A stretch of DNA of 64,000 bases from Bacteroidales bacterium (GTDB lineage: Bacteria; Bacteroidota; Bacteroidia; Bacteroidales; VadinHA17), in NCBI GenBank assembly GCA_003142255.1, contig PLLO01000006.1, forward strand, positions 275,419-339,418, given 5' to 3'. The stretch's first letter is position 1, and the number at the start of each line of letters is the position of its first letter. The notes under the pieces were generated by a model. That model did no database searches. It was given only the letters and a program-made list of their open reading frames with translations, and had not been told where the DNA came from. The position numbers were made by a program, and so were the translations under genes. Positions 36,318 through 45,132 of this stretch are shown here, piece after piece.

Positions 36318-39300
36318 CTATTTATATTCATCCCAGCTCTTTATTGCAAGATCTTCCATTTTTATGTTGCAAAAAGCAAGGATAAATGCACTTGCAAGCC
36401 TTGCATTCGTAATAAGGGGAACATTGAAATCGATAGCGCTTCTTCTGATAGTATAATCATTATCCAGTTCAGTTGCGCTGAGATCCTTTGGTATGTTCAC
36501 CACAAGGTCAACTTCGCGGGTCTTTATGAGCTCTATGGTATTCGGTGATTTATTCTCATCAGGCCAGTAGGCCACGTGCGCTTCAACGCCTGCATTTTCG
36601 AGAAACTGCTGGGTTCCCCTTGTTGCGTATAGTTTATGTCCCCTCTCGGTGAGGGCCCTTGCGCTGTTTAAAAGTTCTACCTTTGAACGGGCAGGCCCGG
36701 TGGAAAGCAGGATGCTCTTTTTAGGTACCCTGTACCCGACAGAGAACATTGCCTTCAGTATTGCCTCGTAAAAACCTTCTCCGATGCAGCCAACCTCGCC
36801 AGTCGATGACATATCGACGCCAAGGATGGGATCGGCTTTGGCCAGGCGCGAGAAGCTGAACTGCGGCGCTTTTACCCCTACATAGTCAAGTTCAAAAAGC
36901 GATTTATCAAGTTTTTTTACGGGTATTCCAAGCATTACCTTCGTTGCCATTTCTATAAGGTTTGCTTTTAAGACTTTGGAAACAAACGGCATGCTGCGGC
37001 TTGCACGAAGGTTGCATTCAATCACTTTAATATCATTGTCCCTGGCAAGGAACTGAATATTGAAGGGACCGGTTATATTAAGCTCCCTTGCTATCTGTTT
37101 TGATATTCGTTTTATTCTCCTGACTGTCTCCAAATATATCTTCTGAGGGGGAAATACAATTGTTGCATCGCCCGAATGGACGCCGGCAAATTCTACATGC
37201 TCGCTGATGGCATATGCTATTATTTCTCCTTCTTTTCCAACGGCGTCTATTTCAATCTCCTTGGCATTCTCTATGAATTCGGAAACTACAACCGGGTACT
37301 GCTTTGATACCTGGGATGCCAGTTCGAGGTAATGAGTAAGTTCATTCTTATTTGAGACCACATTCATTGCTGCTCCGGACAATACATAAGAAGGCCTGAT
37401 AAGTACGGGAAAGCCTATACGGTCGACAAATTCGAAAATATCGTCGATAGAAGTGAGCTCTTGCCACCTCGGCTGGTCGATGGCAAGGTTATCGCACATC
37501 TTTGAGAACTTATGACGGTTTTCAGCCCTGTCAATTGAGAGCGGCGAAGTCCCCAGTACGGTAACATTTTCCCTGAAAAGCCTCATCGCCAGGTTATTCG
37601 GTATTTGTCCACCTACCGAAACAATTACTCCTCCCGGATGTTCGAGGTCAATAATATCAAGGACTCTTTCGAAAGTGAGCTCATCGAAGTAAAGCCTGTC
37701 GCAGATATCATAATCAGTACTTACGGTTTCGGGATTGTAATTGATCATTATTGAACGGAAGCCCTCTTTCTTAATTGTTTCGATTGCATTGACCGAACAC
37801 CAGTCGAACTCAACGCTTGACCCTATCCTGTATGCTCCTGACCCAAGTACGATTATTGACTTTCTGTCCCTCTCGTACACGATATCATTCTCAGTTCCTC
37901 CGTAAGTAAGGTACAGGTAATTTGTGATAGCCGGATACTCGGCTGCAAGGGTGTCGATTTGTTTTACACAGGGAACAATGTCGAGGTTCTTCCTTCTCTG
38001 CCTGACCTTAAGAAGATCTTCGTTGATTTCTGACGGACCTGACCTGAGTACATGCCTGGCAATCTGAAAGTCGCTGAATCCGTTTATCTTGGAATGAGAT
38101 AACAGCTCTGTCGGAATACTTTCAATGGTTTTGTATTGGCTGAGCTCATCTTTGATATTGATGATATTTCTGAGCTTGAACAGGAACCACTTATCGATCT
38201 TTGTGAGTTCATAGATCCTGTCGATAGACATTCCCTTATCGAGAGCCTCGGCAATAGAGAATATCCTCATGTCGGTCGGCTCGGCAAGCTCTTTCTCGAT
38301 ATCCCTGAATTTAATTTCATGGTTGCCGGTAAATCCATGCATTCCCTGGCCTATCATCCTGAGTCCCTTCTGGATGACCTCCTCGAAATTTCTCCCGATT
38401 GCCATAACTTCACCGACGCTTTTCATGCTGCTGCCTATGGCATGCGATACACCCTCGAATTTATTAAGGTCCCATCTCGGGATCTTGCAGACAATATAAT
38501 CGAGGGCAGGTTCAAAGCATGCGGTGGTGGTTTTTGTCACAGAATTCTTCAGTTCATGAAGTCCGTATCCGAGACCAAGCTTTGCAGCCACGAATGCAAG
38601 AGGGTAGCCTGTTGCTTTTGATGCCAGGGCACTTGAACGCGAGAGCCGCGCATTGACTTCAATTACCCGGTAATCTTCCGAATCGGGAGAGAGTGCAAAC
38701 TGAACGTTGCATTCACCGACGATCCCAATATGCCTTATGATCCTTATAGAAAGTTCCCTAAGCTTATGATATTCGCTGTTTGTCAGGGTTTGCGACGGAG
38801 CCACCACAATACTTTCTCCGGTATGAATACCAAGGGGATCGAAGTTCTCCATATTGCAGACAGTTATGCAATTGTCGAATTTGTCCCTGACAACTTCATA
38901 TTCGACTTCTTTCCATCCTTTAAGCGATTCTTCAACGAGTATCTGGTTTGTAAAGGAAAAAGCCCTGGAAGCAAGGTTGTTCATCTCGGCCTTGCTTGAT
39001 GCAAATCCGCTTCCCTGACCTCCCAGGGTATATGCAGCCCTGATAATAATCGGAAATCCCAGTTTTTCAGCTGCTTCAATGGCATCATCAACACTTTGGA
39101 CTGCGATACTGCGAGGTGTTTTAACGTCTATCTCTCCGAGCTTCCTTACAAAAAGCTCCCTGTCCTCCGTATCCATGATGGCAGAAACCGGAGTACCCAG
39201 CACCCTTACATTATATTTCTCAAATATTCCGTTTTTGAAAAGATCCGTTCCGCAGTTGAGAGCTGTCTGTCCGCCAAAGGAAAGCAGGATGCCGTCGGGC

Positions 39301-39539
39301 CGCTCCTTTTCAATAACCTTCTCTACAAAATAGGGAGTTATAGGAAGAAAATATATTTTTCCGGCAATCTCCTCCGAAGTCTGAACCGTTGCTATGTTGG
39401 GATTTATCAGGACGGTTTTGATACCTTCCTCTTTTAATGCCTTAAGTGCCTGTGACCCCGAATAATCGAATTCACCTGCCTCACCAATTTTAAGGGCGCC
39501 GGATCCCAGGATTATCACCTTTTTCAAATCATCTTTCAT
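36318..39539 (-). CDS. carB: Carbamoyl-phosphate synthase large subunit
   Basis: Makes carbamoyl phosphate for arginine and pyrimidines. 1073 aa, full length. Two homologous halves, each starting with an ATP-grasp module (IILGSGALKIGEAGEFDYSG and IVLGSGAYRIGSSVEFDWCS), an oligomerisation region near 400-550, and a C-terminal MGS-like allosteric domain (from about 935, ILLSTGPARSKVELL). Divergent from argR; the small subunit carA is 3.3 kb away beyond argRGH. A -7 box TATTTTTG lies at 39557-39564 (minus strand). Confidence 0.98.
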   Translation of the reverse strand: MKDDLKKVIILGSGALKIGEAGEFDYSGSQALKALKEEGIKTVLINPNIATVQTSEEIAGKIYFLPITPYFVEKVIEKERPDGILLSFGGQTALNCGTDLFKNGIFEKYNVRVLGTPVSAIMDTEDRELFVRKLGEIDVKTPRSIAVQSVDDAIEAAEKLGFPIIIRAAYTLGGQGSGFASSKAEMNNLASRAFSFTNQILVEESLKGWKEVEYEVVRDKFDNCITVCNMENFDPLGIHTGESIVVAPSQTLTNSEYHKLRELSIRIIRHIGIVGECNVQFALSPDSEDYRVIEVNARLSRSSALASKATGYPLAFVAAKLGLGYGLHELKNSVTKTTTACFEPALDYIVCKIPRWDLNKFEGVSHAIGSSMKSVGEVMAIGRNFEEVIQKGLRMIGQGMHGFTGNHEIKFRDIEKELAEPTDMRIFSIAEALDKGMSIDRIYELTKIDKWFLFKLRNIINIKDELSQYKTIESIPTELLSHSKINGFSDFQIARHVLRSGPSEINEDLLKVRQRRKNLDIVPCVKQIDTLAAEYPAITNYLYLTYGGTENDIVYERDRKSIIVLGSGAYRIGSSVEFDWCSVNAIETIKKEGFRSIMINYNPETVSTDYDICDRLYFDELTFERVLDIIDLEHPGGVIVSVGGQIPNNLAMRLFRENVTVLGTSPLSIDRAENRHKFSKMCDNLAIDQPRWQELTSIDDIFEFVDRIGFPVLIRPSYVLSGAAMNVVSNKNELTHYLELASQVSKQYPVVVSEFIENAKEIEIDAVGKEGEIIAYAISEHVEFAGVHSGDATIVFPPQKIYLETVRRIKRISKQIARELNITGPFNIQFLARDNDIKVIECNLRASRSMPFVSKVLKANLIEMATKVMLGIPVKKLDKSLFELDYVGVKAPQFSFSRLAKADPILGVDMSSTGEVGCIGEGFYEAILKAMFSVGYRVPKKSILLSTGPARSKVELLNSARALTERGHKLYATRGTQQFLENAGVEAHVAYWPDENKSPNTIELIKTREVDLVVNIPKDLSATELDNDYTIRRSAIDFNVPLITNARLASAFILAFCNIKMEDLAIKSWDEYK

Positions 39540-39584
39540 CTGACGGATTTGAAGGTCAAAAATAGCACAAATTTTTATTAGAAG

Positions 39585-39614
39585 CTTGTTTTTAATGAAA
39601 TATGAATATATTTG
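39585..39614 (+). promoter_or_regulatory. argR promoter
   Basis: CTTG (39585-39588), 18-bp spacer, TATATTTG (39607-39614). The -7 box is inside the first ARG box. It also excludes the TTG at 39612 as the argR start. Confidence 0.65.
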
Positions 39615-39639
39615 CAGAAAAAATGTATAAATATGCAGA
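39601..39639. promoter_or_regulatory. Two tandem ARG boxes (ArgR operator)
   Basis: Box 1, 39601-39618, TATGAATATATTTGCAGA, has one mismatch to the core TGnAT-n4-ATnCA; box 2, 39622-39639, AATGTATAAATATGCAGA, is a perfect match. Each is 18 bp and they are 3 bp apart (21 bp centre to centre), the arrangement known for ArgR hexamer operators in E. coli. They cover the -7 box and the start codon of argR, so autorepression of argR-argG-argH is expected. Confidence 0.75.
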
Positions 39640-40118
39640 AAACAAAACGGCTTCTGGCAATTGAAAAGTTAATTACAGAGGAGGAAATATCATCGCATGA
39701 AGTACTGCTGAAAAAGCTGAAAGGCAAAGGTCTCAATTGCACTCAGGCAACTCTTTCCCGCAATTTAAGGCAGCTGGGAGCCGGTCGTATTCCTGACGGA
39801 AGAGGTGGCTACAAATATTTCCTGCCCGACAATTCCGGTAATTTGCCTTCGAAAGCAGCCAAGATCCAGGTTCTTCCGGCAATTCGCGAGATTGTTGAGG
39901 CAAAAGGCCTTCTTGTAATAAAAACAATACCAGGCAATGCCAGTAATACTGCATTTTATATAGATAATACATCAAGGTTCGAGATTGCAGGAACCATAGC
40001 TGGTGACGATACCATTCTCGTCATTCCGCGTGACGGTATTTCAATTAATCAGGTGCATACATGCCTCGAGATCATTCTGCCAGGTCTGCATGAGCAAATA
40101 AAAAAGAAAAATATCTGA
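39633..40118 (+). CDS. argR: Arginine repressor ArgR
   Basis: 161 aa from ATG 39633. The longer frame from TTG 39612 would start inside the promoter -7 box. N-terminal winged helix (RLLAIEKLITEEEISSHEVL, NCTQATLSRNLRQLG), C-terminal hexamerisation/arginine-binding domain with IAGTIAGDDTILVIPRD (the GTIAGDDT motif binds arginine). First gene of argR-argG-argH. Confidence 0.95.
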   Translation: MQKTKRLLAIEKLITEEEISSHEVLLKKLKGKGLNCTQATLSRNLRQLGAGRIPDGRGGYKYFLPDNSGNLPSKAAKIQVLPAIREIVEAKGLLVIKTIPGNASNTAFYIDNTSRFEIAGTIAGDDTILVIPRDGISINQVHTCLEIILPGLHEQIKKKNI

Positions 40119-40158
40119 TATAAATATTAAATAGTAATTAACAGTTAAATTTCATAAA

Positions 40159-41391
40159 ATGAAAGAAAAAGTTGTTTTGGCGTACAGCGGAGGATTGGAT
40201 ACTTCGGTAATACTTAAATGGTTAATCGAAAAGGGTTTTGATGTGATTGCATTTGTAGCAGATGTTGGCCAGGCAGAGAATTTTGAGGAGTGCAGGAAAA
40301 AAGCTCTGTTGCTTGGTGCATCCAAAGTCATAATAGCCGATCTGAAAAGGGAATTTGTCGAGAAGTATGTTTTGAAGGCGATAATGGCAAATGCAATTTA
40401 TGAAGACAGGTATCTTCTTGGCACTGCACTGGCCAGGCCGCTGATCGCTAAAAAACAGATTGAAGTTGCCAGGGAGGAGGGCGCCTCTGCCGTTGCTCAT
40501 GGCGCAACCGGTAAAGGCAATGACCAGGTGAGATTTGAACTATGTTATTATGCTCTGATGCCGGGGGTCAAGGTAATTTCACCATGGAAAGACAAGGAAT
40601 TCCTTGCACAATTCAAGGGCAGGACAGATCTTCTTAAATACGCTTCTGAAAAAAAGATCCCTGTGAAAGCCAGTATCGATAAGCCTTATAGCGAAGACGA
40701 TAACCTTATGCATATAAGCCATGAGGCAGGAGTACTTGAAGATCCCATGTATACGCTTCACAAAAGCATGCTCGAAAAAATGGTCATGCCACAGGATGCC
40801 CCGGACAAAGAGACACGTATTGTGATCCACTTCAAGAACGGACTGCCGGTTAAGCTTGTAAACAAGGAAGATGGCACTATAAAAGAAGACCCCTATGATA
40901 TGTATATATATCTGAATGAGCTTGCCGGGAAAAACGGGATCGGATTGCTCGACATGGTAGAGAACAGGTTCGTGGGAATCAAATCGAGAGGTGTCTACGA
41001 GACCCCGGCAGCGACTGTCCTGCATATTGCCCATAAGGATATTGAGGGAATTGCCATGGACCGCGAGGTAATGCGACTTGTTAATATGCTGACCCCTAAA
41101 TTTGCAGAGATAATCTATAATGGATTCTGGTTCAGTCCTGAAATGGATTTTCTGATGGCAGCTATAGAGAAGAGCCAGGAGCTGATCGACGGCAGCGTTC
41201 ATCTTTGCCTTTACAAGGGGAATGTAATTATAGAAGGGCGTGAGTCTCCATCTTCATTATACAATAAAAAGCTATCCAGCATGGATATCGAGGGTGGATT
41301 TGATCAGACCGACAGCAAGGGATTCATAAAGATAAATGCTATCAGGCTCATGGCTCACCGGGCAATTATAGAGGAGAACCGGAATAAATAA
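40159..41391 (+). CDS. argG: Argininosuccinate synthase
   Basis: Joins citrulline and aspartate with ATP. 410 aa. P-loop-like [46 protein letters not shown]. 40 bp after argR with no own promoter seen; 18 bp before argH. Confidence 0.97.
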
Positions 41392-41409
41392 CATAAAAAA
41401 CAAGATTTT

Positions 41410-42750
41410 ATGAAACTTTGGGAAAAAGGGATAACCCCGGAACCTGCAATCATTGAATTTACAGCAGGTGAAGACAGGATGACTGATCTTGCACTTGCCA
41501 AGTGGGATATTATCGGATCAATGGCCCATGTAATAATGCTCAATAATGTCGGGCTGATCGTGGAAGAAGAGAAGAATGATCTGTTAAAAGCACTTCATTC
41601 TCTCTTTGTATGGGATGAAGAGGGGAGTCTTGTAATTGAGAAAGATGTTGAAGACATTCATTCCCAGATAGAGAAAGAGATATCATCGATCCTCGGCACA
41701 ACCGGCAAAAAAATCCATACCGGGCGGTCCAGGAACGATCAGGTTCTGGTCGACATCAGGCTTTATACGCGGGAGGAGATAGATAAGCTCGCCATTCTGG
41801 TTGGGAAGCTCTTTTCAAGGCTTCAGGCCCTGAGCGAACAGCATCGCGAGGTGCTTCTTCCGGGTTATACCCACATGCAGCCGGCAATGGTTTCATCTTT
41901 CGGTCTCTGGTTCGGGGCCTATGCCGAATGCCTTGCAGAGGATATACTGATGCTCTCATCGGCAAGGGCTCTCAATAACAGGAATCCTCTTGGAACGGCT
42001 GCCGGGTTTGGGACAACATTACCCCTGAACAGAAAACTGACTTCCGAGCTACTGGAATTCGATGATCTGCTTTATAATTCAGCATATGCCAGTCTCAGCA
42101 GGGGGAAGGTAGAGTTGTCTGTCGCCTCATCTCTGGCTTCACTGGCCCAGACTCTGTCAAGGTTCTCTATGGATGTATGCCTCTATATGAGTGCAGAGTT
42201 CAGGTTTATTGATTTTCCCGATGAGTATGTGACAGGATCCAGTATAATGCCTCAGAAAAGAAATCCCGATGTCTTCGAGCTTATCCGCGGGAGATCCAAT
42301 ATCATTCAGACTATTCCGAATCAGATTGTCATGCTCACGTCGAATCTTCCTTCCGGTTATAACAGGGATCTGCAGCTATTGAAAAAAATTATATTTAGCG
42401 CATTTCATGAGCTCACGGAATGTATTGAAATCATGCTGCTGATGCTCAATAATATTATAATTCGTAAAAACATAACGGAGAATCCGCTTTACAACACTAT
42501 TTTCAGCACCGAGGAGATAAACAGGCTTGTTAGAGATGGTATTCCATTTCGGGATGCATACCAGGCAGTCTCCGAAATGGTTAAAAATTCTACGTTTTCA
42601 AAGACGGTAATTTCAGATTATGCTCATGAGGGAAGCATCGGCAACCTTTGCAACGAGCAGATTGCAGAATTATTCAACAAGAGGATGGAGTGCTTTAAAA
42701 ACAAGTCGGCTGCAGAAATGGCTGAAAAGATGATGGAGTATGTAAAATGA
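41410..42750 (+). CDS. argH: Argininosuccinate lyase
   Basis: Releases arginine and fumarate. 446 aa, fumarase/aspartase fold. HTGRSRNDQVLVDIRLY, GYTHMQPAMVSSFGLW, and the mobile loop GSSIMPQKRNPDVFELIRG with its catalytic Ser. Ends 5 bp before repeat copy C; converges with carA. Confidence 0.97.
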   Translation: MKLWEKGITPEPAIIEFTAGEDRMTDLALAKWDIIGSMAHVIMLNNVGLIVEEEKNDLLKALHSLFVWDEEGSLVIEKDVEDIHSQIEKEISSILGTTGKKIHTGRSRNDQVLVDIRLYTREEIDKLAILVGKLFSRLQALSEQHREVLLPGYTHMQPAMVSSFGLWFGAYAECLAEDILMLSSARALNNRNPLGTAAGFGTTLPLNRKLTSELLEFDDLLYNSAYASLSRGKVELSVASSLASLAQTLSRFSMDVCLYMSAEFRFIDFPDEYVTGSSIMPQKRNPDVFELIRGRSNIIQTIPNQIVMLTSNLPSGYNRDLQLLKKIIFSAFHELTECIEIMLLMLNNIIIRKNITENPLYNTIFSTEEINRLVRDGIPFRDAYQAVSEMVKNSTFSKTVISDYAHEGSIGNLCNEQIAELFNKRMECFKNKSAAEMAEKMMEYVK

Positions 42751-42755
42751 TATGT

Positions 42756-42857
42756 CCCCCATCCCCCCTGAAGGGGGACTTAATATATTAAAGATTTAGA
42801 TTGTAACGGGATTTGAAGCCCCCTTTAGGGGGCAATCCGTCGTCTGACGGATGGGGG
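42756..42857. repeat. Palindromic intergenic repeat, copy C (full element)
   Basis: 102 bp filling the argH-carA gap almost exactly: 9-bp perfect terminal inverted repeats CCCCCATCC/GGATGGGGG (42756-42764, 42849-42857), internal hairpins CCCCCCTGAAGGGGG and GCCCCCTTTAGGGGGC, and a small CCGTC/GACGG hairpin near the right end. The right end touches the carA stop codon. It may double as a bidirectional terminator. Confidence 0.8.
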
Positions 42858-43937
42858 CTATTTTGATCTTTTAATATTCTCTATGAATACATCAAAAAGG
42901 TAATCGGTATCCGTTGGTCCACCGGAGGCTTCAGGGTGGAACTGAGTTGAGAAGAATGGCTTGGTTTTGTGCTTCATTCCCTCATTGGTCTTGTCATTTA
43001 TATTTATAAAAAGCGGATCCCACTCTTTTCCGAGGGTATTGTTATCGACTGCAAATCCGTGATTCTGCGAGGTTATATATGCTTTATCAGTACCAACATG
43101 GATAACCGGCTGATTGTGGCTTCGGTGTCCGTACTTCAGTTTATATGTGTCGGCACCTGATGCCAGCGCCATAAGCTGGTTGCCAAGGCAAATCCCGAAA
43201 ATCGGTATTCCCTTTTCAAAGGATTTTCTTATGTTTTCAATTGTAATGCCGCACATTTTAGGATCGCCGGGTCCGTTTGAAAGAAAGAGACCATCAAATT
43301 TCTCTGAATGATAATCGTAATCCCATGGAACTCTTATTATTGTTGCGTCTCGCTTCAGCAGGTTCCTGATTATGTTATATTTAACGCCACAGTCAACAAG
43401 CAGTATCCTGTATTTACCGCTGCCATAGATTTTCTTTTCTCTGGTGCTTACCTCGGCAACAAGATTGAACTTGTTCGGGTCATAAAAAGGAACTGATGCC
43501 CCTTCAGGTTCTACTTTCCCGAGCATTGCTCCCTTTTCACGGATCCTTTTGGTAAGGGCACGTGTATCAATTCCATAAACTCCGGGAACTTTATTCCTTT
43601 TAAGCCATTCATCAAGGCTTTCAGTGGCGTTCCAGTGGCTGTACTCGAAGGAGTAATCTGATACTATGAGTCCCGAAATATGAATTGAAGAAGATTCATA
43701 AAAGCGGTAAAGGTCGTTCTCCTCGTTTTTTGCGGGGGCTCCATAATTGCCTACCAGAGGATAAGTAAGACAAAGTATCTGTCCCCTGTAAGATGGATCA
43801 GTAAGGCTTTCCGGGTAACCAGTCATTGCAGTATTGAAAACAACTTCTCCTGCAGCAGCAACCACAGCACCAAAGGATCTTCCATGGTAAACCGTTCCGT
43901 CTTCCAGCGTCAGAGTGACTTTAGTTCTTTCTTCCAT
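42858..43937 (-). CDS. carA: Carbamoyl-phosphate synthase small subunit
   Basis: Glutaminase subunit that feeds ammonia to CarB. 359 aa. N-terminal CPSase domain (LTLEDGTVYHGRSFGA, FNTAMTGYPESLTDPSY) and class I amidotransferase domain with Cys in IFGICLGNQLMALASGA and His in TQFHPEASGGP. Encoded 10 bp after patB, so probably one transcript with it, apart from carB. Confidence 0.97.
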   Translation of the reverse strand: MEERTKVTLTLEDGTVYHGRSFGAVVAAAGEVVFNTAMTGYPESLTDPSYRGQILCLTYPLVGNYGAPAKNEENDLYRFYESSSIHISGLIVSDYSFEYSHWNATESLDEWLKRNKVPGVYGIDTRALTKRIREKGAMLGKVEPEGASVPFYDPNKFNLVAEVSTREKKIYGSGKYRILLVDCGVKYNIIRNLLKRDATIIRVPWDYDYHSEKFDGLFLSNGPGDPKMCGITIENIRKSFEKGIPIFGICLGNQLMALASGADTYKLKYGHRSHNQPVIHVGTDKAYITSQNHGFAVDNNTLGKEWDPLFININDKTNEGMKHKTKPFFSTQFHPEASGGPTDTDYLFDVFIENIKRSK

Positions 43938-43947
43938 CCGTAGGTTA

Positions 43948-45132
43948 TTATTTTAATTGTCTAACTTCTGCAACTGCCTTTTCAATCTGCTCCAGAGCCT
44001 GAGCGACAATCTGCCTGGTTGTACCGATATTCATTCTCATAAAACCTTCACCCCCGGGGCCAAAAGCAGATCCCTCATTCATCCCGACACCTGCCTTATC
44101 GACAAAAAAGCTCTGCAGTTCTTTTCCGTTCATTCCAAATTTCCGGCAATCGAGCCATATCATATATGTTGCCTCATTTCTTACTGGTATTATCTCCGGG
44201 ATGCGCTCCCGGCAATAATTCAGAACCAATTCTGCATTCTTGTTGAGGTACTCAAGCAGCTCCCCAAGCCACTCTTCGCCTTCAGAATAAGCAGCTATTG
44301 AAGCAACTGTTCCAAAGATATTTCCATTTCCGATATGCAGGCTTTCGATCTTCCTGTTGAAGTACTTTCTCAGCACATGGTTTGGAATTATCAGGGATGA
44401 TGTTGATAGTCCGGCGAGATTGAAGGTTTTGCTCGGAGCGATGCATGTAACTGTAATATTAGCGATCTCTTCGGAGATTGATGCTATCGGCGTATACCTG
44501 TATCCGGGAAGCACCAGGTCGCAATGTATCTCATCGGAGAGGATAAGGATATTGTTTTTAAGACAAATGCCGGCAAGTGTTTGGAGTTCCTCGCGTGACC
44601 ATGCTCTGCCGACAGGATTATGGGGATTGGAGATAATGATCATTTTTGTTGATTCGTTCAGAGAAGCTGCCAGTGAGTCAAAGTCCATACTCCATTTTCC
44701 GTCCTTTTCAATCAGCTGGTTGTAAACAATATTTCTGCCATGGCTCTCGACGGCAGAGAAGAAAGGAGTGTACACCGGAGGCTGAACGATTATTGAATCA
44801 CCCGGCCTGGTAAATGACAGGGTGCATAAATTCAGTGCCGGAACAACACCGGGGCAGAAGCATATCCACTCGTTCTCAATTCGCCAGCCGTGTCTTTTTT
44901 CAACCCACCGGGAAATTGAATTATAATACTCTCCCGGGCGGAAAGTGTATCCCATTATTTCATGCTGAAGGCGGGTTCTTAATTTATCAATGATGAACTC
45001 CGGCGTTTTAAAATCCATGTCGGCCACCCACATCGGGATAATATCCTTTTTCCCGAAAGTCTCAAGCCTTAGATCATACTTGACACAGTCAGTTCCCTCT
45101 CTTTCAATATATTCATCAAAATTCCATCTCAT
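43948..45132 (-). CDS. patB: PatB/MalY-type PLP-dependent C-S lyase/aminotransferase
   Basis: 394 aa, fold type I PLP enzyme. IPMWVADMDFKTP is the PatB/MalY signature; ISNPHNPVGRAWSREEL, SDEIHCDLVLPG and the PLP lysine in APSKTFNLAGL are present. Members cleave cystathionine or cysteine C-S bonds. Upstream of carA in the same direction, without a known functional link. Confidence 0.9.
   Translation of the reverse strand: MRWNFDEYIEREGTDCVKYDLRLETFGKKDIIPMWVADMDFKTPEFIIDKLRTRLQHEIMGYTFRPGEYYNSISRWVEKRHGWRIENEWICFCPGVVPALNLCTLSFTRPGDSIIVQPPVYTPFFSAVESHGRNIVYNQLIEKDGKWSMDFDSLAASLNESTKMIIISNPHNPVGRAWSREELQTLAGICLKNNILILSDEIHCDLVLPGYRYTPIASISEEIANITVTCIAPSKTFNLAGLSTSSLIIPNHVLRKYFNRKIESLHIGNGNIFGTVASIAAYSEGEEWLGELLEYLNKNAELVLNYCRERIPEIIPVRNEATYMIWLDCRKFGMNGKELQSFFVDKAGVGMNEGSAFGPGGEGFMRMNIGTTRQIVAQALEQIEKAVAEVRQLK

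Follow-up and report, generated by a model that had tools for sequence, protein, structure and literature searches.

A probable ArgR operator of tandem ARG boxes overlapping the predicted promoter and the start codon of argR in a Bacteroidales genome

In a 64-kb window (the whole stretch of DNA that was analysed) from a Bacteroidales genome, two ARG boxes are arranged in tandem over the predicted promoter and the start codon of argR, and we consider it very probable that they form an operator through which ArgR represses its own gene together with argG and argH. Direct reading of the sequence bore out the first-pass annotation of this DNA, which had described two 18-bp boxes, 3 bp apart, with one perfect core. 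ARG box 1 occupies positions 39601-39618 of the plus strand, and its core, TGAATATATTTGCA (39603-39616), has one mismatch to TGNATN4ATNCA; ARG box 2 (39622-39639, plus strand) has a core, TGTATAAATATGCA (39624-39637), that matches perfectly. The spacer covers 39619-39621, and the core-to-core distance is 21 bp. The ArgR-operator reading is favoured because the spacing, the overlap with the -7 element, the adjoining argR gene, the conservation and the co-occurrence with ArgR all agree, and the same agreement upholds the earlier suggestion that the gammaproteobacterial operator layout, as known from E. coli, is present here on a Bacteroidota-type promoter.

The argR gene (39633-40118, plus strand), assigned from protein family matches, encodes an arginine repressor of 161 aa. 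It is followed on the same strand by argG (argininosuccinate synthase, 40159-41391), which begins 40 bp after it, and by argH (argininosuccinate lyase, 41410-42750), which begins 18 bp after argG. On the minus strand, carB (36318-39539, with its start at 39539) is divergent from argR, and carA converges from the far side of argR-argG-argH, so that the region extends over 36318-43937. Of 11 near-relative loci compared, 10 show the order carB-argR-argG-argH and one (L006) stops inside argG; carA comes next in nine, the sequences of L006 and L157 ending before it. As a separate observation, the two minus-strand genes carA and carB are split by the plus-strand argR-argG-argH, likewise in 9 of the 11 loci, and a gene for a PatB-family C-S lyase (43951-45132) lies directly upstream of carA. 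The argR product is the sole ArgR match in the window's genome, and it has both the DNA-binding and the C-terminal Arg_repressor domains of Pfam (61.4 bits with a cut-off of 27, and 63 bits with a cut-off of 25, respectively). Its score against the NCBIfam equivalog TIGR01529 argR_whole is below the cut-off (118.5 vs 130.45 bits). By sequence, the best solved relative is 1f9n (E 2.3e-23), which we take to be AhrC from B. subtilis.

Single boxes were rejected as evidence, since those with at most one mismatch are found 46 times in the 64-kb window, which is a chance-level count (mean of 50.2 in shuffles). The tandem pair, rather than the single boxes, is the distinctive feature, and TGTATAAATATGCA is the sole perfect TGNATN4ATNCA in the window. 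With a tandem pattern that allows W at one position per box, there are 0 mismatches at argR and 3 at each of the four other listed places, the W having been picked after box 1 had been viewed. Because this choice was made post hoc, the independent test is a profile from which the window's family is absent. Such a model (R2, built from 27 sites upstream of argR in other families) matched the window site at E 1.8e-7 in its own 3.73-Mb genome, as the only match reported at E≤0.01 under the stricter filters that were run in large genome searches and that lose weak matches. For comparison, a model of 41 argR-upstream sites that includes the window's own (R1) gave E 6.5e-9 for this site and E 0.14 for the next-best one in the same genome.

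The earlier placement of the boxes on the -7 element and on the ATG also holds. Box 1 contains the predicted argR -7 element, TATATTTG (39607-39614, plus strand), of the TAnnTTTG class, which we recognised from the sequence and from the consensus given in an excerpt of PMC6847099, and box 2 contains the ATG at 39633, including codon 1 of argR and the first two bases of codon 2. Like other ARG-box operators, which overlap the promoters of arginine genes or of argR, the site overlaps the argR promoter, here a promoter predicted from consensus only and of a type that a sigma-70 promoter scan does not cover. A possible -33 element, TTG (39586-39588, plus strand), lies 18 bp upstream of the -7 element. 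In a set of 38 different sequences, which come from the genus and from near relatives and were themselves selected by the box pattern, TAnATTTG is always present, and TTG or TTTG occurs 18-19 bp upstream of the -7 element in 26, with none found in 12. According to the same excerpt, the distance from the -7 element to the transcription start is 4-5 nt (PMC6847099), which would place the argR transcription start at 39619 or 39620 on the plus strand and leave a leader of 13-14 nt. Box 1 deviates from the consensus at a single base, with TTGCA instead of ATNCA, and T occupies the deviant position in 42 of the 45 sites compared from the order and from near relatives, all of them selected with A or T allowed there. 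This mismatch appears to be near-fixed, and it coincides with the TTTG of the predicted -7 element.

We compared the site with near relatives through nine loci (L001-L009) that were obtained by searching genome contigs with the ArgR protein, without using the operator. All nine keep the tandem at a spacing of 21, with the ATG at the identical place (at most 0.1 expected from shuffles), and the boxes are thus conserved in relatives, a point on which the first-pass annotation had made its reading depend. Within the window's genus, ArgR exceeds the cut-off in 53 of 58 genomes; G753 has a sub-cut-off fragment at a contig end, and four genomes have no match. The R2 model matches over the argR start (E≤9.1e-4) in 51 of the 53 ArgR genes, in 50 of them at the identical offset. 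Both exceptions are close to the rule: in G779 the layout is kept but box 1 is weaker, and in G771 box 1 is followed by two unknown bases at the place of box 2 and the start, which is an assembly gap. Of the four genomes lacking an ArgR match (G732, G761, G776 and G778), only one shows an operator match, a weak one (E 0.0064), and the other three show none.

Across the order, an ArgR match was found in 160 of the 393 genomes drawn. The operator scan covered 107 argR loci, that is, the 110 (30 + 80) taken from 109 genomes minus L049, L058 and L140, which were dropped for their short upstream sequence. Using the W pattern and allowing each relaxed core up to one mismatch, we found the tandem in 47 of the 107 loci, compared with 0.7 expected from shuffles, and did not find it in the other 60; 37 of the 47 positive loci have a spacing of 21, and 2 come from the window's genus. 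Across the phylum, 111 of 296 genomes drawn had ArgR, and the tandem was found in none of 29 argR loci outside the order, the lone positive among the 30 scanned (L028, from G230) belonging to the order. Thus, as far as tested, the operator is a Bacteroidales trait.

The site also tends to occur with ArgR. In 198 order genomes, R1 matched at E≤1e-4 in 42 of 76 with ArgR vs 2 of 122 without it (Fisher 1.4e-19), a contrast that is inflated because some of the ArgR-bearing genomes had contributed training sites to R1; at E≤1e-3, the counts are 49 of 76 vs 12 of 122. The exceptions are the 34 of 76 ArgR-bearing genomes with no R1 match at E≤1e-4 and one genome in which no ArgR was matched, G439. 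In this last genome, a strong operator-like site (locus L239, E 1.9e-8) is surrounded by six ORFs of at least 80 aa.

In the mechanism that we propose, the arginine-bound ArgR hexamer would occupy both boxes on one face of the helix, the cores being 21 bp apart, and bound ArgR would span about -19 to +20 of the predicted transcription start, hiding the -7 element from RNA polymerase. Plentiful arginine would then switch argR off and, by read-through, argG and argH as well. We infer the binding, the hexamer, the arginine dependence, the transcription start, the read-through and the direction of the effect, and for arginine as the ligand and the exclusion of polymerase we draw on the ArgR family.

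It might be argued that this is a real ArgR site whose main role is to serve the divergent carB, or that it switches between overlapping divergent argR and carB promoters. Indeed, carB is divergent in all 11 near-relative loci compared, its predicted -7 element (TATTTTTG, 39557-39564, minus strand) is largely conserved, being similar, though non-identical, across all rows of a 20-sequence alignment, and the carB -33 region would overlap that of argR. Nevertheless, the operator sits on the -7 element and the start of argR, 36 bp from the predicted carB -7 element, and elsewhere in the order it stays with argR, often with argC downstream, so we regard a main role at carB as improbable. Slightly less probable still is that ArgR binds here and activates argR-argG-argH, or that its ligand is a different one, for instance citrulline or ornithine. 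This alternative would suit a genome in which no argC was found and whose pathway is thus unlike the classical one; however, a protein lying over about -19 to +20 should stand in the way of polymerase, and the C-terminal stretch of this ArgR aligns with solved arginine repressors, where two of three alignments show GDDTIL and the other shows GDDTCL.

One point against any ArgR reading is that parts of both boxes would be kept even without a repressor, box 1 for its -7 element and box 2 for its start codon. That the conserved letters are merely these two things, a -7 element and an A-rich start-codon region with an incidental likeness to ARG boxes, is nevertheless very unlikely, for although TATATTTG does lie in box 1 and the ATG in box 2, and although adenines at -3 and -6 promote initiation in Flavobacterium johnsoniae (PMC6847099, in the part available), the TGnAT half-sites are conserved outside both elements save for one base, the spacing of 21 is kept where the ATG is elsewhere, and the presence of the operator tracks that of ArgR.

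Taking the site as an ArgR operator, its fusion with the start codon deserves separate consideration. The ATG lies inside box 2 in 36 of 36 inspected genus loci (35 genomes, the window's included), a count that is not independent of the boxes, as all loci except the window were fetched via operator models. Outside the genus, only one (L144, from G348 of another family) of the three positive loci in which the ATG does not follow box 2 shares the in-box position, and the arrangement is therefore nearly genus-specific. The first-pass annotation had held that the boxes settle the argR start codon; conservation gives the ATG at 39633 good support, but the boxes cannot decide the matter by themselves, because 42 of the 45 positive loci outside the genus have their ATG beyond box 2 (0-4 nt beyond it in 24 of the 45). 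In the 38 sequences mentioned above, mean information amounts to 1.85 bits for either core, 1.10 for the stretch between them and 0.52 for the sequence upstream; since these sequences were chosen by the core pattern, the invariance of the cores is partly a product of selection, while the contrast between the inter-core and upstream values is not. Each of the 38 has CAA, CAG or CAT as codon 2, the CA of which belongs to the selecting pattern. A occurs at -3 in 37 of the 38, at -6 in 38, at -12 in 27 and at -13 in 14, the four positions at which, in the same part of PMC6847099, adenines are described as favouring initiation in F. johnsoniae. We propose that, in the window's genus, where box 2 provides the start codon together with its A-rich surroundings, 14 bp serve at once as half-operator, translation start and codons 1-2.

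Box 2 also creates an out-of-frame ATG (39623-39625), located 10 nt before the argR start, which opens a 13-codon frame in the window and is present in 33 of the 38 related sequences; AUG is underrepresented near starts in the phylum, according to the available text of PMC6847099. No leader RNA hairpin was indicated, the palindromic box folding with a z of only -0.96.

A related question is how much of the arginine pathway this operator governs. No argC over the cut-off was found in any of the 58 genus genomes, including that of the window, and 52 of them have weak argC matches; in the window's genome, the sole such match was discarded as an argC candidate, being an aspartate-semialdehyde dehydrogenase. 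In the order, argC exceeds the cut-off in 56 of 198 genomes, 40 of which also have ArgR, and in 32 of these 40, it is on the strand of argR and no more than 5 kb downstream of it. Given that argC is so often downstream of argR elsewhere, the operator plausibly governs a longer arg operon in those genomes and argR-argG-argH in the window's genome. Genes for carbamate kinase and ornithine carbamoyltransferase are found side by side elsewhere in this genome (L154, 6324-8560). In the 18 kb scanned there, no tandem operator was found next to these genes, and one tandem with 2 mismatches (L154, 517-551; 0.14 expected) lies more than 5 kb from both; no tandem was found in 10 kb around a second OTCace match, nor any ArgR-like frame at nine weaker operator-match loci of the same genome (L160-L168). 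The argR site is the only strong tandem site in the window's genome.

Tentatively, and with slightly less than an even chance of being right, we suggest that the arginine regulon of the genus may have shrunk to one strong operator per genome, merged with the argR start, with box 1 as a near-fixed compromise between an ARG box and a -7 element, and that ArgR controls only itself and the last two steps of the pathway. If so, the downstream half-site, ATGCA, would be both a repressor contact and codons 1-2, the steps under ArgR would, without argC, be those from citrulline to arginine, and the out-of-frame AUG at -10 might damp ArgR translation.

No study of ARG boxes in Bacteroidota was recognised, by titles and the starts of abstracts, among the literature matches listed, and the portion of PMC7366714 available does not mention ArgR. 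An earlier in silico prediction of Bacteroidota ArgR sites is quite possible, for example in RegPrecise 3.0, which, in the part available, includes a Bacteroidaceae collection with 35 regulators (PMC3840689). The site would belong to a known kind of operator, of which its sequence makes it a well-supported new member. Its interest lies in the indication that the ArgR operator design of E. coli, with the same spacing, is used on a divergent Bacteroidota-type promoter, in a profile that can readily be used to search Bacteroidales for ArgR sites, and in the merging of operator and start codon throughout the genus, where three constraints meet compactly in a single short sequence.

Among known systems, the ArgR operators of E. 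coli are described in the available part of PMC6640053 as two 18-bp imperfect palindromes, 3 bp apart, that overlap the promoter. The window site resembles them in its paired 18-bp boxes, its 3-bp spacer and its promoter overlap, and differs in its TAnnTTTG promoter element, in the near-fixed change of ATNCA to TTGCA in box 1 and in the start codon under box 2. To ArgR/AhrC of the Bacillus type, the likeness is in the protein, through 1f9n. Further parallels are the other operators upstream of argR in Bacteroidales, which have the same tandem, mostly the same spacing and the same overlap with TAnnTTTG, but in which the ATG mostly comes after box 2 and argC is often found downstream of argR.
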